Source of the DNA: Kiritimatiellia bacterium
GTDB taxonomy: Bacteria > Verrucomicrobiota > Kiritimatiellia > RFP12 > UBA1067
Length of the DNA stretch: 36,049 bases
Reading direction: 5' to 3'
Assembly: GCA_017646325.1 (NCBI GenBank)
Contig: JAGCMU010000098.1
Coordinates: 1-36,049, forward strand
Part shown: positions 980 to 32,469 of the stretch, in pieces
How positions within the stretch are numbered: position 1 is the stretch's first letter
Layout: each line of letters starts with the position of its first letter
Program-made: the position numbers and the translations under genes
The notes under the pieces: model-generated
Seen by the model: only the letters and a program-made list of their open reading frames with translations
Database searches by the model: none
Told to the model about the DNA's origin: nothing

Positions 980-1831
980 TTAAAGATTACCGCTTGCAGC
1001 CTTGTTAATCAAACTACGAGTATCTTCTTTGGAACGATCCTTGCGTCTTCTCTCGGTGATTTTTGTCGTATCTACAGCATTGCTGAGTAAATCGCTGCAA
1101 AGTTCCTTACAAATGAACGGATATCCTTTTGCACGCAAAAGCTGATGGAGAGAATCGGCATCCGGCGAATCTTTGATGGCTTTTACCATTACATCAAGCA
1201 TGCCAGGGGCGATATTGCCTGGAATATAAATTTGAGAATATTCAACACCGAAGAAATAAACTCCTCCATCCATCAAATGGCGGTGAATCGTATTGCGGTA
1301 ATTGTTGATTCTAAGAAGCAGGGCTTTCGTTCTTGCGTCCTTTACAAATTCCCCTTCTTCATTGGAATCTTCTGAAGCGCTACTTGTTGATGAGGAAGTT
1401 TCTTCTGGTTCGTTCGAAGAGGAAGGCGCGGATATGGAAACAGCGGGAGCATCATCAAAAAGCGCATCCAAAGCACTTATTTCAGTGACCGCCGACTTCG
1501 TTGTTTTTTTCACGCTTTCAGTGCGTCTTGGAGCTGAAGAAGTTGAAGATGGAGCTGCAGCTGAATTTGTAAATCTTTTCCAAGGAACAACCTGCCCCGT
1601 CACCTGCTTGCCATTGATTTTTATAACCGTTCCATAACGAACGACACGATAAGGAGGTTGGATATATTCGCCGTTGACAAATACATACCCAGAGCGTACA
1701 GGCTTTTTGGGACTCGTTATTTTTAAATTAACGACAGCTGCAGCAGGAGTTTGTTCAAAAGCTTCCTTTGCAACAGCAAAATTCAACGTTATTAAACAAA
1801 CAACTAATACAAATATACTCCTTAAAGCCAT
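980..1831 (-). CDS. Secreted protein of unknown function
   Basis: I do not recognise this 283-residue protein. Residues 1-21 form a clear signal peptide (hydrophobic core, AVA just before the mature KEAF), so it is exported to the periplasm or outer membrane. Mature residues 30-85 hold a small domain with GYVFVNGEYIQPPY and GTVIKINGKQV, a beta-rich pattern reminiscent of a surface or carbohydrate-contacting module, though that is only an impression. Residues about 90-160 are a Ser/Thr/Ala/Glu-rich low-complexity linker. The C-terminal 110 residues (from DARTKALLLRIN) look helical, with two Cys pairs' worth of residues in CKELCSD. Its start has a strong AGAGGAG site. It lies between pheT plus the structured gap and the rRNA methyltransferase, probably in one transcript. 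Confidence 0.75.
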   Translation of the reverse strand: MALRSIFVLVVCLITLNFAVAKEAFEQTPAAAVVNLKITSPKKPVRSGYVFVNGEYIQPPYRVVRYGTVIKINGKQVTGQVVPWKRFTNSAAAPSSTSSAPRRTESVKKTTKSAVTEISALDALFDDAPAVSISAPSSSNEPEETSSSTSSASEDSNEEGEFVKDARTKALLLRINNYRNTIHRHLMDGGVYFFGVEYSQIYIPGNIAPGMLDVMVKAIKDSPDADSLHQLLRAKGYPFICKELCSDLLSNAVDTTKITERRRKDRSKEDTRSLINKAASGNL

Positions 1832-2018: not shown

Positions 2019-4478
2019 TCAATTGTCGCGCACCTCTACCTTTAAATCTGTTTTAAGTGCATTGACAATTTTTGTAAACGCTGCATTAACCTCTTCGTCT
2101 GTCATCGTTTTAACAGGAGACTGGAACGACATAGAATAGGCCATGCTGCGCTTTGAACCAAGTTCTTTTGAAGTAAAGATATCAAATAGATCGATTGATG
2201 TCAATTCCGCAGGTGCAACTTTCTTGATACACTTGACGATTGCTTCGTGAGAAATGTCACTTCCTGCAACAAGAGCGATATCGCGAGTCGACTTAGGGAA
2301 TTGCGCGACAGCTGAAACCTTGCCGAAAGCATCAACGCGTTTCATCAATGGAGCAAGATCGAATTCTGCAAGCCCCATCTGCGTCGTAAGACGGAAAGGA
2401 TGACGCAATTTAGCTGAAAGAACACCCAAGATACCAGCTGGACGACCATTGATTACAATGGAAAGCGCTGCGCCAGGAACGAAAGCAGGATGTTCAATAG
2501 GCTTGAATTCCAACTTGCCGACATGAACTCCGACAGCAACCTTTTCTACAGCACCTTTCATCCAAAGCAATGCTTCTTCAATACCTACATTGCGGCGCGA
2601 ATCCAATGCGTTTCGTCCAACAGGCCCGCAAAAACCGAGCGAAAGGCGTTCTGCTTCACAAGGCTTTCCATCCTTCGTTTTTGAAAAGACTCTGCCCATT
2701 TCGAAAAGCATCGCTCTTTCAACCTGATGAGATGCATTGCGTCCGAGGCTGTACATCATCTGCGGTAAAAGCGAGTCACGCAAAACCCCGTATTCTGCAG
2801 AAACGGGATCCGGCAATTCAAGACGGTTTGATTTAACTTCTTCACGAGAATCAAAACGGTCAAGTTCACCGGCGGAAAGGAATGAATAATGCATTGCTTC
2901 CGTAAAGCCAAGAGAGAGGCAAAGTTTGCGGATCTTTTCCTTGGCACGGAACGGGGCGTCGGAAAGTGAAGAAATGCTTGGAGCCGACGGCATCGTATCT
3001 GGAATATTGTCTAAACCGTAAAGACGGCCGATTTCTTCAACCAAATCTGCTTCGAGGCTCAAATCATAACGCCAACTTGGAATTGCGAACTTAGCGTCCG
3101 TATCATTTCTCTCAATCAACTTGAGCTGTTGAGACTCAAGAATCTTCACCATCGTATCGGATGAAATTTCAACACCGATTAAGCGACATGCTTTTTCAAA
3201 ATTGAGCGATACGGGAGCATTGTAAGAATAAGATTTTTCCGGTGCTTCAGGGAAAGGAATTTCACGTGCGTCCACATCGACAACACCCTTTGCAATGACG
3301 GCATTGCCGTACTTCTGCAGGAGGTGTGCTACGCGGCGGCTTGCCCAATCCGCCAAATCCTTGTCGACTCCGCGAATATAGCGATAGCTTGCTTCCGTAG
3401 CAAGACCAAGCTTTGTTGACGTATATTTTGTGGAAGATGTTTCAAAAAGCGCCGACTCAATAAGAACGTGATCTGTTCCTGCAGCAATTTCAGAATTTTC
3501 GCCACCCATCACACCTGCAACGGCACTTGCTTTTTCAGCATCGCAAATGAGAAGCATTGACGGATCGAGATCTCTTTCTACTCCGTCAAGAGTCTTGATC
3601 TTTTCACCTTCTTTTGCATCGCGAACGACAATCGTCTTGCCTGCAAGCGTACGATAATCAAATGCATGAAGAGGCTGTCCACATTCAAGCATCACATAAT
3701 TCGTTACGTCAACCAACAAACCTAACGATCTTACGCCACAAGCTTCAAGGCGTTTTGCCATAAATTCAGGCGAAGGACCATCTTGTACAGATGTGATTAC
3801 ACGAGCCGTATAACGAGGACAACGAATCTTGTCTTCAACAACGACTTTTACTTCGTCATTGACATCGACATCAGATTCTACAAAATCAATTGCCGGCATT
3901 TTGAATGGACGACCTAAAACTGAAGCGTATTCGCGAGCAAGCCCAATAACACTCAAAGCATCAGGACGATTCCACGTAACTTCAATTTCAAAAACGGTTT
4001 CAGGCTTTTCCGCCTTAACGACATCACGGACAAATGCACCAGTTGGCGTGTCTTGAGGGAATTCCATAATGCCGTCGTGCGAAGAATCCAACTTCAATTC
4101 GCTTGACGAACAAAGCATTCCGAATGATTCAACTCCGCGAAGCTTGCCCTTCTTGATTTTAAATCCACCGTCTGGAACAACGGCTCCGATTTTAGCAAGA
4201 GCACTCTTCATTCCTGCACGGCAATTTGGAGCGCCGCAAACGACCTGCCATGTCTCCTTGCCGTCTGTTACGGTCGTCACATGGAGGTGATCGCTGTCAG
4301 GATGAGGTTCACACGTCAACACTTCGGCCACAACGAAGAAATCAGACAATGGCTCATTACCTGATGTAATAATTTCTTCAACTTGTAAGCCACTACGGGT
4401 TAGACGCTCGGCAAGTTCCGCCACAGGAATGTCGGATACGTCTACAAATTCATTAAGCCAACTGATCGGCAATTTCAT
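2019..4478 (-). CDS. pheT: Phenylalanyl-tRNA synthetase beta subunit
   Basis: This 819-residue protein is the beta chain of the alpha2-beta2 enzyme that charges tRNA-Phe in the cytoplasm. The domain order is the full bacterial one: an N-terminal segment starting MKLPISWLNEFVD, the EMAPII/OB tRNA-binding domain (about 40-150, with VCGAPNCRAGM and GKLRGVES), the B3/B4 editing region (with GQPLHAFD and VMGGENSEI), B5, the catalytic-like core, and a C-terminal FDX-ACB anticodon domain (QFPKSTRDIALV, to the end). Length fits the usual 790-830. It begins 18 nt after the zinc-finger gene and shares its promoter. pheS, the usual upstream partner, is not adjacent, so the alpha subunit must be encoded elsewhere. 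Confidence 0.97.
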   Translation of the reverse strand: MKLPISWLNEFVDVSDIPVAELAERLTRSGLQVEEIITSGNEPLSDFFVVAEVLTCEPHPDSDHLHVTTVTDGKETWQVVCGAPNCRAGMKSALAKIGAVVPDGGFKIKKGKLRGVESFGMLCSSSELKLDSSHDGIMEFPQDTPTGAFVRDVVKAEKPETVFEIEVTWNRPDALSVIGLAREYASVLGRPFKMPAIDFVESDVDVNDEVKVVVEDKIRCPRYTARVITSVQDGPSPEFMAKRLEACGVRSLGLLVDVTNYVMLECGQPLHAFDYRTLAGKTIVVRDAKEGEKIKTLDGVERDLDPSMLLICDAEKASAVAGVMGGENSEIAAGTDHVLIESALFETSSTKYTSTKLGLATEASYRYIRGVDKDLADWASRRVAHLLQKYGNAVIAKGVVDVDAREIPFPEAPEKSYSYNAPVSLNFEKACRLIGVEISSDTMVKILESQQLKLIERNDTDAKFAIPSWRYDLSLEADLVEEIGRLYGLDNIPDTMPSAPSISSLSDAPFRAKEKIRKLCLSLGFTEAMHYSFLSAGELDRFDSREEVKSNRLELPDPVSAEYGVLRDSLLPQMMYSLGRNASHQVERAMLFEMGRVFSKTKDGKPCEAERLSLGFCGPVGRNALDSRRNVGIEEALLWMKGAVEKVAVGVHVGKLEFKPIEHPAFVPGAALSIVINGRPAGILGVLSAKLRHPFRLTTQMGLAEFDLAPLMKRVDAFGKVSAVAQFPKSTRDIALVAGSDISHEAIVKCIKKVAPAELTSIDLFDIFTSKELGSKRSMAYSMSFQSPVKTMTDEEVNAAFTKIVNALKTDLKVEVRDN

Positions 4479-4496: not shown

Positions 4497-5993
4497 TTAT
4501 TTCTCTTCTTCAACAGGAGATTCGCTTGCGGCGGGAGCCGTTTCTTCAACAACTGAAACTTCTTCAACTGCCGGAGCGGCCTCCACTGCCGGTGCTTCTT
4601 CCGTTTTGGAAGCTGCTTCCTTTTTAGGAGCATCTTTCTTCTTTGATTGTTGCGGTGGGCGATAAAGCGGATGTTCGCATGGAACAGCAACTCCTCCGTT
4701 CACATAACAAATCAAATAACCTTTTTCTGCAAGCCAAGCAAGTTTCGTTGTGATATCCGCCTTTTTCTGCGAATCATCACCGGAAAGTTCCTTGATAAGA
4801 GCTTGTTGAGTTGTGTTAGGATTGTTTTGAACAAACTTTACAATTTCAACGAGTTCTGGAATAGCATTTTCCAAATCAAGATTTTGAGGCTTTGCTGCAA
4901 CTACAAATTCTGGCCCATGCGAATCGTTTGCACGGAAAAACACGAGCTTGCGATTATGGAAAGCTCCGCGCAATGCAAACATGATCGAACCTGGGAAACG
5001 ACGTTCCTGACGAAGCGCATCATTACACGCATAGATGAGCGGACGGTACGAAGACTTTGCCGCGACATCGGCAGTTACGTCAAAAGTCGTTACGCTCGAC
5101 ATCAGATTATTTGCAATATTGCGACGAAAATCAAGCTCTGCAACGTCACGATCTACAGCTGGAGCTTCCTTATCGCCTTTCTTACGATAAATAATCTTAG
5201 TCGTTGCCGACGCTCTCCACTGTTCTACAACATCAGAATCGCGAACCATTTCAATTTTTGAACGATATTCGCTTTCTGTCATATTAGGATAGCGTGTTGA
5301 AATCATTTCGCGAATGCGTTCATCGTATCCGTGAAGATTTGGCGGACCAAGAAGTTCTCCGCTCATTCCACAACGGGCGACACAAGGGAATTGCCCCTTC
5401 GGCGGTTCACATTCAACCGTTTCGGCGATAAAATAGTCGGTCAAATGCGTCGACATAATGTGTGAAAGAAGTTCGTCTTGAGTTTCCACAATATGACCAC
5501 AAGCCTTGCACTGTTGCAATGTGACAACTTCGCCATCTTTCTTCGGAGAAAAGCGGAGCACTGTTGCCGCCGGATTTTCAAGGAAGAGGTTTGCAAGCTG
5601 CTTGAGAGGATATGCATAATGAGATGTTTGAATCTTACGAATAATAATGCCGATATCCTTTTGAGAAGGAAGAATTCTCACCTGTGCGTCAAGAGGCTTG
5701 ATAAATTCACGTTGAGCTTTGCGAAAACCTTCCTTACGCCCCTTTTCGCCATCACGAGAACGATTGCGATTTCCGCGATTACCACGCTCTTCGCGGCGGC
5801 GCTCGCCGCCCTTACGTTCATCTCGATCACGACGACGCTCGCGCGTGTCGGATTTTTCACCTTCAGAATAACTCACATATTTGTTTTTATCACCAGCATC
5901 GCTCTTCGCCCACGCTGGAGTAAAATCAAATGACCCCAATGAACTTAAATCAAACACATCACCATTGGGATTAACTTTATTTTCGTCAGCCAT
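4497..5993 (-). CDS. Zinc-finger, Arg-rich protein of unknown function
   Basis: This 498-residue protein has no function I can name; it resembles an uncharacterised family I associate with Verrucomicrobia-type genomes. Residues 51-91 are extremely Arg/Lys/Gly-rich, which suggests RNA or ribosome binding. A canonical C2H2 finger follows: Cys162-x2-Cys165-x12-His178-x4-His183. A second Cys pair (C204, C208) precedes LGPPNLHGYDERI, which looks like a conserved core. Residues about 380-437 resemble a winged helix (NTTQQALIKELSG ... EKGYLICYVNGGVAVP). The last 45 residues are an Ala/Glu/Val acidic tail with VVEET, similar in flavour to the repeat of the 474-residue GYF protein. It has the strong promoter at 6032-6060 and an AGGAG site, and pheT follows after 18 nt, which hints at a translation-related role. 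Confidence 0.85.
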   Translation of the reverse strand: MADENKVNPNGDVFDLSSLGSFDFTPAWAKSDAGDKNKYVSYSEGEKSDTRERRRDRDERKGGERRREERGNRGNRNRSRDGEKGRKEGFRKAQREFIKPLDAQVRILPSQKDIGIIIRKIQTSHYAYPLKQLANLFLENPAATVLRFSPKKDGEVVTLQQCKACGHIVETQDELLSHIMSTHLTDYFIAETVECEPPKGQFPCVARCGMSGELLGPPNLHGYDERIREMISTRYPNMTESEYRSKIEMVRDSDVVEQWRASATTKIIYRKKGDKEAPAVDRDVAELDFRRNIANNLMSSVTTFDVTADVAAKSSYRPLIYACNDALRQERRFPGSIMFALRGAFHNRKLVFFRANDSHGPEFVVAAKPQNLDLENAIPELVEIVKFVQNNPNTTQQALIKELSGDDSQKKADITTKLAWLAEKGYLICYVNGGVAVPCEHPLYRPPQQSKKKDAPKKEAASKTEEAPAVEAAPAVEEVSVVEETAPAASESPVEEEK

Positions 5994-6031: not shown

Positions 6032-6060
6032 ATTATCTAAAATCGAGACTGATATGTCAA
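6032..6060 (-). promoter_or_regulatory. Sigma70-type promoter for the zinc-finger gene and pheT
   Basis: On the minus strand a perfect -35 box TTGACA (6055-6060) is separated by 17 nt from GATAAT (6032-6037). It lies in the 74-nt gap after skp and about 40 nt upstream of the ATG at 5993, which is preceded by the strong ribosome site AGAGGAG. It is the closest to consensus in the window. Confidence 0.85.
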
Positions 6061-6067
6061 TACTTTA

Positions 6068-6640
6068 TTACTTCAATGGCGAACCGACCTTTGGAAGGGT
6101 CTTACGCTTAGAAGGATCGACTTTCATCATCTTTAAAATCTCATCTGTAACATCTAAAGTTTTCTTGGAATACGCAAGCATTGTAGAATCGGCGATAATA
6201 TCGTAACCGTTCTTTTTTGCATACTCTTCAACCTTCGCGCGAATCTCATCCGTTTCAATCTTCAAAAGACGAGACTCCAAGTCAGTCAAATCGTGCTGAT
6301 AGCGTTGAGCTGAAATGCGCAATTCCTGCTGACCTGCAAGAAGCTTTTGCTGAATGCCTTCGACTTTTTGCTTCGCCGCCGCCTTTGCGGTGGCAGAAAG
6401 CATAGGATTGGACATTTCTTCAAAAGCCTTTTTCCCTTCGTCGGCAAGTTCCTGCAATGCGTTCTGCTGCTTTTCAAGCATCGCCTGATAATCTTTGTCC
6501 GTAGCCTTTACTAGTGTACGGTTTGATTCATGGTTAGGATGAAGCTGGACAAGTTCAACCATGTTGATTGTGCCGATTTTCATTTCGCCCACTGCGACGA
6601 AGGCAAATGCGGCAACTAAACCTAATATTGTTCGTTTCAT
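6068..6640 (-). CDS. skp: OmpH/Skp-family periplasmic chaperone
   Basis: This 190-residue protein belongs to the OmpH/Skp family, trimeric periplasmic chaperones that hold unfolded outer-membrane proteins for delivery to BamA. An N-terminal hydrophobic segment (about residues 4-17, LGLVAAFAFVAV) serves as signal peptide; the mature chain opens with the family strand KIGTINMVELVQLHP. Residues about 40-135 are charged helix typical of the tentacles, and the C-terminal part returns to the body with KKNGYDIIADSTMLAYS. It follows bamA by 20 nt, the classical bamA-skp order, and is the last gene of a long minus-strand run. Length is close to the 160-190 norm. Confidence 0.92.
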   Translation of the reverse strand: MKRTILGLVAAFAFVAVGEMKIGTINMVELVQLHPNHESNRTLVKATDKDYQAMLEKQQNALQELADEGKKAFEEMSNPMLSATAKAAAKQKVEGIQQKLLAGQQELRISAQRYQHDLTDLESRLLKIETDEIRAKVEEYAKKNGYDIIADSTMLAYSKKTLDVTDEILKMMKVDPSKRKTLPKVGSPLK

Positions 6641-17979: not shown

Positions 17980-18330
17980 TTATACGCAGATAAAAACGAT
18001 GCCTGGATTTGGTGAGCGGCGATAATATTGCGGGATTTGCGTTATGTCTGGAAATGAGAGACATTCAACCGAAAATATGTCGGCTGCTTTTTCACCGTCC
18101 AAATATCCGCGAATATGGTACTGAGAAAGATATCGACTGCATGCAGCCAAGACATTTTGTTTGATTAAAGACGTCCCGCCTGAAGAGCCGTACCCGGTTA
18201 TAACAGCAAACAAACTAGGTCCTGCGGCGCGAGCATTTGAAATTATTCTTTCAAGCTTTGCCAATGCCGTATCCACATTACTGCCGCGCGGATGCAAATC
18301 GTATTCCATCAACCCTTTATTGCGTTTCAT
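17980..18330 (-). CDS. Small Smr-domain protein
   Basis: This 116-residue protein is mostly one Smr (small MutS-related) domain, a nuclease/nucleic-acid-binding fold found alone or at the C terminus of MutS2. Evidence is the YDLHPRG start (the family DLHG/DLHP block), the spacing through ALAKLERIISNARAAG, and VITGYGSSGGTSLIKQNVL, which corresponds to the family's HGxGxGxLrxaV loop although the usual His is replaced by Thr or Gly. The C terminus (GEKAADIFSVECL) is less typical. The start lies 5 nt after nth, with a GGGAA-type ribosome site, suggesting cotranscription with that DNA repair gene. Substitutions in the loop leave the nuclease activity uncertain. Confidence 0.65.
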   Translation of the reverse strand: MKRNKGLMEYDLHPRGSNVDTALAKLERIISNARAAGPSLFAVITGYGSSGGTSLIKQNVLAACSRYLSQYHIRGYLDGEKAADIFSVECLSFPDITQIPQYYRRSPNPGIVFICV

Positions 18331-18335
18331 ATTCC

Positions 18336-19055
18336 CTACCCTTCTATAACGCTATTGCAATATTTTTTTATTGGGCAATCCGTACATTTAGGATTACGCG
18401 GAGCGCAACGCGTTTGCCCGAACGAAACCAAGTATGAGTTCCACGTTTTCCAATATTTTACAGGTAAAATTTTTCTAAGCGTCATTTCCGTCTCAAACGG
18501 AGTTGACGTTTTTAAAAGTCCCAATCGATTTGTTATCCTGTGTACGTGTACATCAACGCAGATTGCGGGTTTATCAAATCCTACCGCAACCACGAGATTT
18601 GCGGTTTTTCTCCCCACTCCGGGTAGCTCGCACAAAGACTCTACATCTTGCGGCAACACGCCTCCAAATTTTTCACGCAACACAGATGGAAGCTTTTTCA
18701 AATGCTTCGCTTTTTCCCTGAAAAAACCGACGGGAAAAATCAAGGCTTCAATTTCTTTGACACTCAAAGATTCTAATCCTTGAGGCGTAACAGCGCTAAA
18801 CCTTTTACGCAATTCTCCAAAGAGACGCTCGACAGCTCCCGCCGTGCACGCGTCTTTCGTTCGTGCAGAAAGGATTGTTCCCACGAGCACGCAAAAAGGA
18901 TCTTTTGTCTGCGCTTCTATGAGTTCAATGATAGGCGCAGAATGAGAGACAAACTCTTTTTTAAGAAGTTTATTTATTGCTGAAAATTTCTTTTCCATAT
19001 CGTCAAAAAGAAAAACAGAGTCAATGATATCGTCCATTGACTCTGCTACAACCAT
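18336..19055 (-). CDS. nth: Endonuclease III
   Basis: This 239-residue enzyme is a base-excision-repair glycosylase/AP lyase for oxidised pyrimidines. The helix-hairpin-helix reads LPGVGRKTAN, with catalytic Lys150 and, 18 residues later, Asp168 in ICVDVHVHR, exactly the E. coli K120/D138 spacing. The C-terminal [4Fe-4S] cluster is Cys217-x6-Cys224-x2-Cys227-x5-Cys233. The family block usually reading LSAQTTD is LSARTKD here (62-68). The chain has about 19 extra N-terminal residues compared with relatives; a start at the Met of MEKKFSAINK (about 18998) would give a normal 220-residue protein, and neither candidate has a clear ribosome site. It follows the HU gene by 19 nt. Confidence 0.93.
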   Translation of the reverse strand: MVVAESMDDIIDSVFLFDDMEKKFSAINKLLKKEFVSHSAPIIELIEAQTKDPFCVLVGTILSARTKDACTAGAVERLFGELRKRFSAVTPQGLESLSVKEIEALIFPVGFFREKAKHLKKLPSVLREKFGGVLPQDVESLCELPGVGRKTANLVVAVGFDKPAICVDVHVHRITNRLGLLKTSTPFETEMTLRKILPVKYWKTWNSYLVSFGQTRCAPRNPKCTDCPIKKYCNSVIEG

Positions 19056-27822: not shown

Positions 27823-29116
27823 TAATAAAGTTTATCACAAGATTGACGCCCTTTCAGGTTCTGTCGCCACGCTTCGCGCAGAAGGTGTCAAATATAACGA
27901 AATTGCAGAAGTAACTTCTCGTGCAGGCGTATCTTTGGCGCAGGTCATTAAATTGGACGGGCCGAATGTCACGCTCCAAATCTTTGCAGGCGCACGCGGC
28001 GTCGACACTTCTGCCCGCGTCCGTTTCTTGGGTGAAACGATGAAGGTTCCTTTTGGAGACGAATTATTGGGCCGTGCATTTACAGGCTCCGGCGAACCTC
28101 GCGATGGAGGCCCGCACCTTGATTCAAACAAGGTGCCGATCGGGCAGCCTTCCGTCAATCCCGCAAAGCGTATTATGCCAAATCGAATGGTACGTACGAA
28201 TATTCCGATGATTGACCTTTTCAACTCGCTCGTTGTTTCGCAAAAACTTCCGATTTTCGCAAAGGCTGGTGAACCCTATAACGACCTTCTTGCACGAATT
28301 GCAATGCAGGCAAACTCCGACGTTATCGTTCTTGGCGGCATGGGGCTTAAATACGATGCATATCTCAAATTCCGTGATACGCTCGACAAGTCAGGCGCTC
28401 TTGCAAAAACGGTAATGTTCGTACATACTGCTGCAGACCCGACTGTAGAATGTATGCTTGTTCCCGATTTGTCTCTTGCAGTCGCCGAGCAATTCGCTCT
28501 TAAAGGCAAAGATGTTCTCGTTCTTTTGACAGACATGACGAGCTTTGCGGACGCAATGAAAGAAATCGCCATTACGATGGAACAAATCCCGTCCAACCGC
28601 GGTTATCCAGGTGATTTGTATTCTCAGCTCGCCTCACGCTATGAAAAGGCCGTAGACTTTGATGGAGCAGGTTCAATTACCGTTCTTGCCGTAACGACAA
28701 TGCCTGGCGATGACGTAACGCACCCCGTTCCTGACAATACAGGGTATATTACAGAGGGGCAATTCTACTTGCGCAACGGACGTATCGAGCCATTTGGTTC
28801 GCTCTCCCGTTTGAAACAGCAGGTTAACAAACACACGCGTAAAGACCACCGCACGATTATGGACGCATTGATTAAGCTTTATGCGTCATATAAAGAAACG
28901 GTGGAAAAACAATCTATGGGCTTTAGAATGTCTTCTTGGGATGAAAAACTTTTAAAATACGGAGAAATGTTCGAAAAAGAAATGATGGACCTTTCCGTAA
29001 ACATCCCTCTTGAAGAAGCTTTGGATAAGGGATGGCAGATTCTTGCCGACTGCTTTGACAAAACAGAAGTAGGTATCCCATCTAAATTAACTGAAGAGTT
29101 CTGGCCTAAAAGCTAA
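27815..29116 (+). CDS. atpB: V/A-type ATPase subunit B
   Basis: This 433-residue protein is the non-catalytic nucleotide-binding subunit that alternates with A in the head. It lacks a canonical P-loop, as expected, but keeps [54 protein letters not shown] and [14 protein letters not shown]. Start is GTG at 27815, supported by AGAGGAGG 6-13 nt upstream, and the start overlaps the atpA end by 8 nt, so translation is probably coupled. Length is near the usual 430-460. In relatives the next gene is subunit D, but here a GYF_2 protein follows after 17 nt. Confidence 0.97.
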
Positions 29117-29133
29117 AATCATTAAGGATTTTT

Positions 29134-29979
29134 ATGAGTGATCAGTGGTATGTAAAGAATTCCGCAGGAAAAACTTTTGGTCCGATTACCCTTGATAAAT
29201 TGAAAGAATGGGTAAGAGATGGACGCATTGAACCTCTTGCGGGGATTTCTTCCGATTTGAAATCTTGGATTCTCGCCCCGATGAAACCTGAATTGGAAAT
29301 GAATTGGGTGATTGAAAACAATCCAGGGCAGTTTTATGGTCCAACACATCGCAATGTAATCAACGACCTGATCAAAGCAGGTTCCTTATCCCCTTCTGTA
29401 CGCTTTTTCTTTGACGACCGCGGGCACACTGAAAAACGCATTCAGGAAATGGAACAAATGCTTGAAGAGCGCGACAAGACAATTGCCGCACGCGAATTGA
29501 CGATTCAAGAACTTCAAAAAACATCAAAGCGCAAGGATGAACAGCTTGCCGAAACGCAAAAGGTTATTCAACAATGCGAAGCGCGTTTGAGTGAAGCGCA
29601 ATCAATCGTCCGTCAAAAGGATTTAAAAATCAAAGACAAAGACGACCAACTCGCGGACAAGGATAAAATGCTTTTTGACCGCGATGCGATTATCGCATCA
29701 AAAGATGCCGAACTTCGCGTACGCGCTCAAGAACTTGCAAAGTGCAATTCTGAAATTTCTTCTCTTAAAAATGAAATTTCAAAAGCGAATGAAGTCCATG
29801 ACCGTCAATGGGAAACGCAAGAAGTCCTTTTACCTGAAATTATCAGTAATGAGCCACCGCCGCCGGTTGCTCACAAGGCCTTTAATTTCGGATCTATGAA
29901 AACGCTTGCAGACCTTGAACGCCAAGCGCAGGAAGAACTTTCCCGCATCGGTGGAGCAGGTGCTTTCTTTAATAAATAA
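29134..29979 (+). CDS. Tandem GYF_2 (DUF4339) coiled-coil protein
   Basis: I cannot assign a function to this 281-residue protein. Residues about 4-47 (WYVKNSAGKTFGPITLDKLK...) and 57-98 (MNWVIENNPGQFYGPTHRN...) are two GYF_2/DUF4339 modules, short domains with a W-Y...GP pattern thought to mediate protein-protein contacts. Residues about 100-225 are charged heptad-like coiled coil with repeats of KDKDDQLADKDKML type. The C terminus contains a proline stretch NEPPPPV and a short helix. No signal peptide or membrane segment is visible, so it is cytoplasmic. An AAGGA site precedes its start. It follows atpB by 17 nt, in the slot where subunit D usually is, but it has no resemblance to D. Confidence 0.82.
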   Translation: MSDQWYVKNSAGKTFGPITLDKLKEWVRDGRIEPLAGISSDLKSWILAPMKPELEMNWVIENNPGQFYGPTHRNVINDLIKAGSLSPSVRFFFDDRGHTEKRIQEMEQMLEERDKTIAARELTIQELQKTSKRKDEQLAETQKVIQQCEARLSEAQSIVRQKDLKIKDKDDQLADKDKMLFDRDAIIASKDAELRVRAQELAKCNSEISSLKNEISKANEVHDRQWETQEVLLPEIISNEPPPPVAHKAFNFGSMKTLADLERQAQEELSRIGGAGAFFNK

Positions 29980-29991
29980 CGAATCATTATC

Positions 29992-31416
29992 ATGGCCGAT
30001 AACACATATTTATTAAAAACTTCGGATGGAATTTATGGCCCCGAAACTCAAGCCCGTCTGATTGAATGGGCGAAAGTTGGCCGTATCCAGCCCGGGCAAG
30101 AAATTTCTACGGATGGCGAAGAATGGGTAAATGTGACAGAAATTCCATTCCTTGATATGCGCTGGTCTATCGATCTTCAAGACGGGAAACCGCCACGCGG
30201 ACCATTTCGCAAAGAAGCCGTAGAAGCTCTTCTCGCACGAGGAAATTTGGGAGATGCGAAAATCGTTCAAGTCCCCGCTCCTTGGGAAAGCGGTGAAGAT
30301 GATATAACTATTGTCCCTGACGAGGAAATTATTTCAGAAGAAGAAAATGAAATCGTCGTTGAACTTGATGACGAACAACCATCTGAAGAATCACCTGTCA
30401 CAGAAGATATTGTTGTTGAAGAAACTCCAGTAGTTGAGGAAACACCTGTTGTTGAAGAGACTCCTGTAGTTGAAGAAACACCCGTTGTTGAGGAAACACC
30501 TGTTGTTGAAGAGACTCCAGTTGTTGAGGAAACACCCGTTGTTGAGGAAACACCTGTTGTTGAAGAGACTCCTACAGTTGAAGAGACTCTAATGGCCGAG
30601 CAAAAACAATCTCCGATTGAAAAAGAAGAGCCTCTTAAAGCATTGCATCCGCAAAAAGGCGTTCTTCAATCTTTAAAGGAAACTATTTCCGATTTAAGCG
30701 AGAAGCTTTCTCCCCTTTTAAATAAACAACATCAAGAATCTTTAGCAGAACAAAAGAAAGAAAATACAGAGATTAAAAGCCCTGTTTTACCGAACCTTGA
30801 AATGCCTAAAGACGAAAACGTCGCAAATGCGTTATACGAATTGATGCGAGAGGAAGCGGAAGCGCTTGCAAAATTGATTGACGCTGAAAATGCTGAAAGA
30901 GAAGCGTACTGTAATTTAAGCCAGCAGCGAAAAGAAAGAATGCTTGATCGCCGACAGAATTTGTTGAGAATGATCGGCTCAAATGCAGACGAAATGGTCA
31001 ACCGAGCAAGATTGACTTATCCTGAAGTGTCTCGCAACGCCCATTTACGCCAAGATTACAACGCTCTTCGTTTATTGCAGGAACGTGCCGCACAAGAAGC
31101 CGAAAGTAAAATCGCCGCTTTAACGGAACGATTAAAGAAAAGCGAAACGGAAGCAGTTCGTTTACGCCAACAATGCGCAGATGTTTCAACTCTTGCAAAA
31201 GCATTAGCCGAAACACGCGAAAAACTGCATCTTCGTGAAAAGGAACTTGTAGCGGAGCGTCAAAAATTTGAAACAGAACGTCAACGTTTCGCAATGACGG
31301 AACAATCTCTTATGAGTAGACTTTCCGCTCTTGAATCAAGTCTTCCAGGCGGAACGAACCAATCGCGTGAAGCGCGCAGCGTTAAACTCGCACCCTGGTT
31401 CCAAGTAAAAAGTTGA
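29992..31416 (+). CDS. GYF_2 protein with VVEETP repeats and coiled coil
   Basis: This 474-residue protein is a longer relative of the preceding one; its role is unknown. Residues 4-46 (TYLLKTSDGIYGPETQAR...) and 57-95 (RWSIDLQDGKPPRGPFR...) resemble two GYF_2 modules. Then comes an acidic linker and, at residues 141-200, ten hexapeptide units, nine VVEETP and a last TVEETL. Residues from about 210 form a helical, Glu/Lys/Arg/Gln-rich region with long coiled coil (to about 455), ending in a basic tail (EARSVKLAPWFQVKS). Start is ATG without an evident ribosome site, 12 nt after the previous gene. The two are probably paralogues that interact. Confidence 0.8.
   Translation: MADNTYLLKTSDGIYGPETQARLIEWAKVGRIQPGQEISTDGEEWVNVTEIPFLDMRWSIDLQDGKPPRGPFRKEAVEALLARGNLGDAKIVQVPAPWESGEDDITIVPDEEIISEEENEIVVELDDEQPSEESPVTEDIVVEETPVVEETPVVEETPVVEETPVVEETPVVEETPVVEETPVVEETPVVEETPTVEETLMAEQKQSPIEKEEPLKALHPQKGVLQSLKETISDLSEKLSPLLNKQHQESLAEQKKENTEIKSPVLPNLEMPKDENVANALYELMREEAEALAKLIDAENAEREAYCNLSQQRKERMLDRRQNLLRMIGSNADEMVNRARLTYPEVSRNAHLRQDYNALRLLQERAAQEAESKIAALTERLKKSETEAVRLRQQCADVSTLAKALAETREKLHLREKELVAERQKFETERQRFAMTEQSLMSRLSALESSLPGGTNQSREARSVKLAPWFQVKS
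30412..30591 (+). repeat. Ten-unit 18-bp tandem repeat (VVEETP)
   Basis: Ten in-frame 18-bp units encode nine VVEETP and one TVEETL. Several units are identical and others differ only at third positions (GAA/GAG, ACT/ACA, CCA/CCT/CCC), so copy number has probably changed by slippage or recombination while selection kept the acidic-proline peptide. The unit would form an extended stiff linker between the GYF and coiled-coil regions. Confidence 0.95.
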
Positions 31417-31956: not shown

Positions 31957-32469
31957 ATGGTAGAAAAAGACGTACGTATAATCGTCGCAAGACTCACCGA
32001 AGATCCTCAGGAGTTTTCCGGGACGCTTTCAAGATCAATCCTTGAAATGGAAAACGAAAAGTTCGTTCGTCCTGTCGGTGATATCGAATACGAACTTTAT
32101 GCCCAACTTTTGGGGACGGAAGCACTCATTAGGGGTAAGATGTCTCAACGTTTTGTAGCAATGTGTTCAAGGTGTGCAGAAGACTTTGAATTCACTCTGG
32201 AAATATCCGATTTCACCTATTGTGTTGAGACTCATGAAAAAACCGACATATTAGATTTGACTAATGAGCTTAGAGAGTGTATAATATTAGAATTACCAAG
32301 TTACCCTATTTGTCGAGATGATTGCTTGGGAATTTGCCAAACGTGTCACACGAACCTCAACAAAGGCGAGTGTTCATGTAAGGCGGAAGTCTCAAACGAT
32401 TGTTGGGGAGCGTTGGATGCGCTCAAGGGTAGTTTGATAGAAGATGACTTAAAGAAGAAAGAGAAGTGA
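31957..32469 (+). CDS. DUF177/YceD-family protein
   Basis: This 170-residue protein belongs to the DUF177 (YceD) family, which nearly always precedes rpmF and plsX and is linked to 23S rRNA maturation or accumulation. Two Cys pairs are visible: CSRCAEDFEF mid-chain and a C-terminal cluster CRDDCLGICQTC, followed by CSC. The pattern ELPSYPICRDDCLGICQTC is the typical end of this family (the usual form is CrpdCkGLCp.CG). It begins 4 nt after coaD and ends 4 nt before rpmF, and the classic yceD-rpmF-plsX order supports the call. Confidence 0.9.
   Translation: MVEKDVRIIVARLTEDPQEFSGTLSRSILEMENEKFVRPVGDIEYELYAQLLGTEALIRGKMSQRFVAMCSRCAEDFEFTLEISDFTYCVETHEKTDILDLTNELRECIILELPSYPICRDDCLGICQTCHTNLNKGECSCKAEVSNDCWGALDALKGSLIEDDLKKKEK

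Follow-up and report, generated by a model that had tools for sequence, protein, structure and literature searches.

A widespread, uncatalogued bacterial protein family with an animal-style C2H2 finger that is missing from many of its relatives

A widespread bacterial protein family, uncatalogued and without a Pfam or NCBIfam model, was found throughout the class of the bacterium analyzed here and in many other genomes of its phylum. This bacterial family carries an animal-style C2H2 finger, which is missing from many relatives. The member under study is encoded in a window of 36,049 nt, i.e., the whole stretch of DNA that was analyzed (Kiritimatiellia bacterium, GCA_017646325.1, contig JAGCMU010000098.1, positions 1-36,049), by a 498-aa gene on the minus strand (4497..5993, stop codon included, ATG start). 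The first-pass annotation of this DNA had described a 498-residue open reading frame with a C-x2-C-x12-H-x4-H motif, which was found exactly at C162-K-A-C165-x12-H178-x4-H183. Neither the window protein nor a varied selection of members could be assigned to an accepted family by searches of Pfam, NCBIfam, PHROGs and PADLOC, and with Pfam and NCBIfam nothing better than E 0.0055 was obtained on 44 diverse members, which no model covers. A weak match to PDC-S27 (E 0.0024) in one of 19 members was disregarded, and weak matches to PF17003 (Actin_micro) in 28 of 54 N-domain members (residues 96-276, best E 6e-4) were treated as chance. The PDB sequence searches gave best E values of 1.1 and 0.098, and tblastn against plasmids and phages found no match to the family. 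No description of the family was found in the literature searched, subscription papers being mostly outside that search. The stlA product, of 257 aa and with homologues mostly annotated as membrane protein (PMC3861447), was set apart by length alone.

The conservation of the family was followed on 174 distinct rows, comprising 98 near rows, 37 other class-level rows and 39 rows from other classes. The near set, which counts 98 distinct rows out of 140 (L001-L140), brings together same-order relatives and the best 80 of 304 GTDB relatives (order not named), the latter coming from a GTDB pattern scan of 310 stretches; the labels of these best 80 read Kiritimatiellota for 36, Verrucomicrobiota for 16 and Lentisphaerota for six, 22 being without name. 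Relatives were present in 57 of 59 near genomes and in all 33 of at least 90% completeness, the two genomes without a relative being 67% and 72% complete. Of the 387 genomes in the phylum sample, 242 carry the family and 145 do not; among the 310 good-quality ones, the corresponding counts are 218 and 92. The same tally was obtained from an order-level profile and from a diverse core profile, and the weakest positive of the latter over the 387 genomes had an E value of 1.3e-31, so that presence and absence are sharply separated. From a hand count on the 387-genome listing, in which 125 negatives were not itemised and were taken as other-class genomes because the listing is ordered by kinship, the gene occurs in 44/44 genomes of the same order or nearer, in 84/87 remaining genomes of the class (128/131 for the class including the order) and in 114/256 genomes elsewhere in the phylum. 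The absence from G075, a single-contig and 100% complete genome of a family (f46) with many positives, is a natural loss. The ADP/ATP translocase, used as a test for Chlamydiae in 12 negative genomes, gave nothing in 11 of them and a weak match in one. As judged from record titles, many of the carrier bacteria come from rumen or gut samples. A near-ubiquitous protein of the class that has no family model represents a real annotation gap in these bacteria.

The C2H2 finger occupies residues 162-183 (5445..5510, minus strand), and its ligands are complete in 98/98 near rows and in 127 of all 174 rows. The four ligands are among the 17 invariant columns of the 346 core columns in the near set, whose mean pairwise identity is 52%. 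Such a pattern, H-x3-5-H being allowed, arose in 8 of 100,000 shuffles of the window protein and in 3 of 6,912 other open reading frames of at least 120 aa in the fetched loci, antisense frames included. The invariance of the ligands suggests that the finger binds zinc. Against the Pfam zf-C2H2 model (PF00096), the finger scored 12.4 bits, below the gathering cut-off of 25.2. In the structure model, a helix (172-187) follows short strands, and this segment superimposed on single C2H2 fingers with an rmsd of 1.6-2.1 over 30-31 residues, with Z values of only 2.2-2.7, the best match being 7mc3 (rmsd 1.6 over 31 residues, Z 2.7).

The span from C162 to H183 measures 22 residues in all 127 keepers. 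Among the 47 rows in which CCHH is incomplete, 37 retain this exact length, so that the hairpin-helix fold probably persists in the absence of metal, and an Asp stands at position 165 in 34 (summed). An unrooted tree of 93 rows was computed with the finger columns left out; in it, the full ligand set is absent from 39/39 other-class rows, and within the class of the window 46 of 54 rows keep the finger and eight do not. The finger state requires at least four changes on this tree, three of them forced by well-supported (starred) branches. The finger may have been gained in the window's class and then lost in places; the residual ligands of other classes (SDHH, CDHx) make a loss of the finger more likely. 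In any case, the finger is dispensable to the family, its ligands being repeatedly absent while the rest of the protein is kept. The first-pass annotation had named a lack of Cys/His conservation in relatives as the observation that would speak against it: conservation was found in the near set and in most of the class, and the lack of it elsewhere in the phylum.

The remainder of the protein was described from an AlphaFold2 model (54 sequences), in which a confident core spans residues ~100-445 (pLDDT of 91-98 by tens over 101-440), confidence being low before ~90 and past ~450. Ahead of this core lies a linear motif, DLSSLGSFDFTPAWAK (residues 15-30, 5904..5951, minus strand), with an invariant W28 that is found in 171/171 rows with a residue there, three rows having a gap. 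The strict form of this motif had no match in the 6,912 other open reading frames of the fetched loci, and a looser form is present in 141 of the 171 family rows. It is followed by an Arg-rich, low-confidence and presumably disordered tail (residues ~32-98, 5700..5900, minus strand; pLDDT below 50 for 39-85). The Arg-rich arm noticed earlier is real: residues 30-98 are net positive in 173/173 rows scored, with group medians of +9, +9 and +10 (+9 in 97 near rows) and a median Arg fraction of 0.23-0.26 across all three groups.

The core begins with an alpha/beta domain that holds the finger together with P-P-K-G-x-F ... C208 ... G-P-P-N-x-H221 ... W259. The phylum-wide core motif within it (residues 199-259, 5217..5399, minus strand) includes G200, C208, GPPN.H (216-221) and W259, with G200 and W259 in 174/174 rows, H221 in 173/174, N219 in 171/174 and C208 in 167/174. 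The second Cys pair reported in the first-pass annotation corresponds to C204-x3-C208, in which C204 is found in only 115/174 rows. A Cys-His catalytic pair formed by C208 and H221 was considered and rejected because C208 is replaced in 7/174 rows. Folded alone, the N-domain reached a pTM of 0.52 and a mean pLDDT of 84.9, a confidence below that of the corresponding residues in the full-length model; fold searches with it gave no Foldseek E value below 0.4, and Z did not exceed 3.3, most of these matches being to single fingers.

Two winged helices would follow. The first one (residues 282-372, 4878..5150, minus strand) is probable from the secondary structure of the model, and its basic recognition helix and wing (335-372) have a net charge above zero in 174/174 rows. 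The second one (residues 373-444, 4662..4877, minus strand) is clear both in the model and in fold matches, which bears out the probable winged helix of the first-pass annotation; it is acidic, residues 375-444 having a net charge below zero in 170/174 rows. VIA-align matched it to many winged helices with Z of 5-6.5, the best being RNase R (Z 6.5, rmsd 1.9 over 65 residues), and as Z values below 8 are common by chance according to the tool's own note, such matches say "winged helix" and nothing further. The protein ends with an acidic, Ala/Glu/Pro-rich, low-confidence tail (residues 449-498, 4500..4649, minus strand; pLDDT below 50 for 458-493 and 495-498), which exists in 92/98 near rows (median charge -8) and 37/39 other-class rows (median -12), and in only 8/37 class-level rows outside the near set, where it is not acidic (median +3.5). 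The whole core had no match among solved structures (Foldseek best E 0.11), and in a viral structure library none was obtained at 0.001, the best (E 4.5e-3) being a MarR-type phage protein.

Four features taken together point towards nucleic-acid binding: a first winged helix that is basic throughout the family, a tail rich in Arg, no evident set of catalytic residues, and a distribution like that of housekeeping genes. Our tentative reading, to which we give somewhat less than an even chance, is that of a soluble housekeeping nucleic-acid-binding protein. The basic recognition helix and wing of the first winged helix would contact RNA or DNA together with the Arg-rich tail, and RNA would be slightly favoured because of this tail, as disordered tails rich in Arg occur more commonly in proteins that bind RNA. 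The W28 motif stays constant while the residues around it vary and in this resembles a docking peptide, which could dock a partner protein. The finger resembles a clip, being invariant in the near set but absent from other members in which the protein itself persists; it would bind zinc and act as a replaceable structural element rather than as a contact surface, which would explain why whole lineages manage without it. The idea that the loss of the finger is compensated by a more basic wing was not retained: the median net charge of residues 335-372 is 9 in other-class rows versus 3 in the near set, but within the class compensation is unsupported because the wing of the eight finger-less class-level rows is no more basic than that of the keepers (median 4 in both).

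Winged helices serve as protein contacts too, which counts against our reading, as do the absence of the gene from 145 of the 387 genomes and the lack of a solved structure that matches the entire core. Two other explanations have to be weighed. A nucleoid-associated or transcription factor binding DNA only, through its winged helices and Arg tail, is on the whole unlikely but deserves serious attention; since nucleic-acid binding is a step common to it and to the reading preferred above, the probabilities of the two overlap at that step. It would agree with the MarR, MecI, BlaI and linker-histone winged helices found among the fold matches (Z 5-6.2) and with the bacterial C2H2 precedent of Ros/MucR, described as binding DNA (PMC9779718). 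However, these fold matches fall on the second, acidic winged helix and not on the basic first one, their Z values lie in the range that is common by chance, and an Arg-rich disordered tail is a feature more common among RNA binders. The protein could instead be a protein-protein adaptor, with its winged helices used as in ScpB/MukE (KITE) or ESCRT-II and its charged tails serving for solubility or as a tether. ESCRT-II, TFIIIC, the Stn1 C-terminal region, MukE and ScpB are all built on tandem winged helices; the first four are among the first Foldseek rows, and ScpB came second in the fold comparison (Z 6.3, rmsd 6.0, 119 residues). Yet all the Foldseek matches are weak (E 0.11 or worse) and an adaptor leaves the steadily basic first winged helix unexplained, which makes this explanation improbable in our view. 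A replacement of ScpB itself by the family protein was rejected because the two co-occur: of 18 genomes with the family that were tested for ScpB, 16 also have a distinct ScpB gene. As a separate observation, no ScpB match was found in 8 of 10 family-less genomes tested (G060, G064, G072, G074, G082, G092, G093 and G096), nor in G078 and G081 (genus g85), both of which have the family; in several lineages of the phylum, ScpB seems to have disappeared or to have diverged strongly.

The gene neighbourhood had suggested to the first-pass annotation a role in translation or RNA binding, by way of pheT. This gene (2019..4478, minus strand), whose product contains B3/4, B5, tRNA_bind, CLM and FDX-ACB domains, lies downstream of the 498-aa gene on the same strand with a spacing of 18 bases, which suggests that the two are cotranscribed. 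On the other side, an OmpH/Skp-like gene (6068-6640, minus strand) precedes the 498-aa gene with a gap of 74 bases, and an Omp85/BamA gene lies upstream of it, also on the minus strand. The gap contains a promoter-like site, TTGACA-17-GATAAT (6032..6060, minus strand), that matches the consensus at 11 of 12 positions. It had been called the best promoter in the window, and it does stand before the gene, but it is only joint best, an equally good site being found at 32257-32285 in the window scan. Since the numbers of promoter-like sites in the window are close to those expected from shuffles (35 versus 28.7, sd 5.6; 23 versus 21.2, sd 4.3), this site is a hint only. An Rfam scan of the window gave zero matches.

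A factor for translation or tRNA with a functional tie to PheRS would account for the tight coupling with pheT, for the promoter-like site ahead of both genes, and for the recurrence of pheT as the very next gene in the same orientation: of the 89 near loci that extend 500 bases or more past the family gene, 55 have it there (10 further near loci being too short, as perhaps are some of the 34 near loci without pheT). However, pheT adjoins the gene in 0/35 other class-level loci and 0/37 other-class loci, two loci being too short in each group, and pheS is located on another contig of the genome (G000:C59:1261-2001). The window protein itself has no match to the tRNA-synt_2d catalytic domain of pheS. 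Other genes are found nearby elsewhere: an aconitase-like gene precedes the family gene in nine near loci (family tested on one of the nine), and FtsK, L28 with acyl carrier protein, a sigma-54 regulator or a Y-family polymerase occur in others (one protein each tested). Hence, the link with translation rests on the operon of one lineage and does not generalise, and the tie to PheRS appears very improbable; the pheT neighbourhood is incidental to the family. The unrelated genomic context against which the first-pass annotation had measured its claim is therefore real outside this lineage, and of its proposal nucleic-acid binding remains the best reading while the connection to translation through pheT is unsupported. 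No neighbour common to the whole phylum was found in the 46 loci compared, and this, together with the near-universal presence in the class and the restriction of pheT to near loci, is what one would expect of a housekeeping gene that stands on its own.

Besides, other proteins of the window drew attention. The gene at 980-1831 (minus strand), after pheT, encodes a protein with a signal-peptide-like start, as judged by eye, and without Pfam match at E 0.001; its relatives follow pheT in 30 loci among those listed, and its product is probably a second conserved protein of no assigned function, exported. Two consecutive proteins are encoded at 29110-31413 (plus strand), the former with a borderline GYF_2 match (25.7 versus 25.8 bits) and the latter with a sub-threshold LED_rpt match only; the genes that precede this pair resemble what we take to be V-type ATPase subunits. 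A small protein at 17983-18351 (minus strand) has a sub-threshold Smr match (23.5 versus 25.7 bits).

A bolder version of the nucleic-acid-binding reading, which we regard as rather unlikely, would make the family a global RNA-binding protein that belongs to the core apparatus of gene expression in two or more bacterial classes, i.e., a phylum-specific post-transcriptional or RNA-polymerase-associated factor that docks to its partner through its W motif and whose eukaryote-like finger was lost on several separate occasions, frequently through the Cys-to-Asp change that Ros/MucR also shows. Within the phylum, Verrucomicrobium spinosum is open to genetic work: targeted mutagenesis and a transposon essentiality map with 100 of 618 essential proteins of unknown function have been described for it (PMC12283558). 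Relatives with and without the ligands, at near-constant length, also constitute a natural series on the persistence of the C2H2 fold after metal loss.

Among known systems, the classical C2H2 finger (zf-C2H2, PF00096; C-x2-4-C-x12-H-x3-5-H) shares with the finger described here the exact ligand spacing and the hairpin-helix arrangement, as well as weak single-finger fold matches, but here one finger is built into a larger alpha/beta domain, with no finger chain. The tandem winged-helix proteins (ScpB/MukE, ESCRT-II) would resemble the window protein by two consecutive winged helices, of which the second is clear and the first probable, and differ from it in that it has an extra N-terminal finger domain; the ScpB model PF04079 and other tandem winged-helix models were absent from its matches up to E 10. 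Within the same superphylum, the PVC signature protein CT421.2 is likewise a lineage-restricted protein of unknown function, but its length goes from ~53 aa in Chlamydiaceae to over 80 aa in Planctomycetes (PMC3444138) versus 498 aa here, the two being compared by description only. A parallel for a single C2H2-type finger in a bacterium is Ros/MucR, although no Ros/MucR was found among the profile matches of the window protein up to E 10 and none was named so among 25 of the 30 weak families listed for N-domain members. Ros is a protein of 142 aa with a C-terminal finger and a spacer of nine residues from Cys to the first His (PMC9779718), whereas the spacer is of 12 residues, as in eukaryotes, in the 498-aa window protein, where the finger (162-183) is accompanied by a winged helix and charged tails. 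In both cases relatives lose zinc ligands, often with an Asp at the second Cys (165 here); the Ros homologues include Cys-Asp-His2 sites and Ml5, which is zinc-free and yet binds DNA (PMC9779718). Such a zinc-free homologue offers, by analogy, a precedent for a finger kept without its metal.
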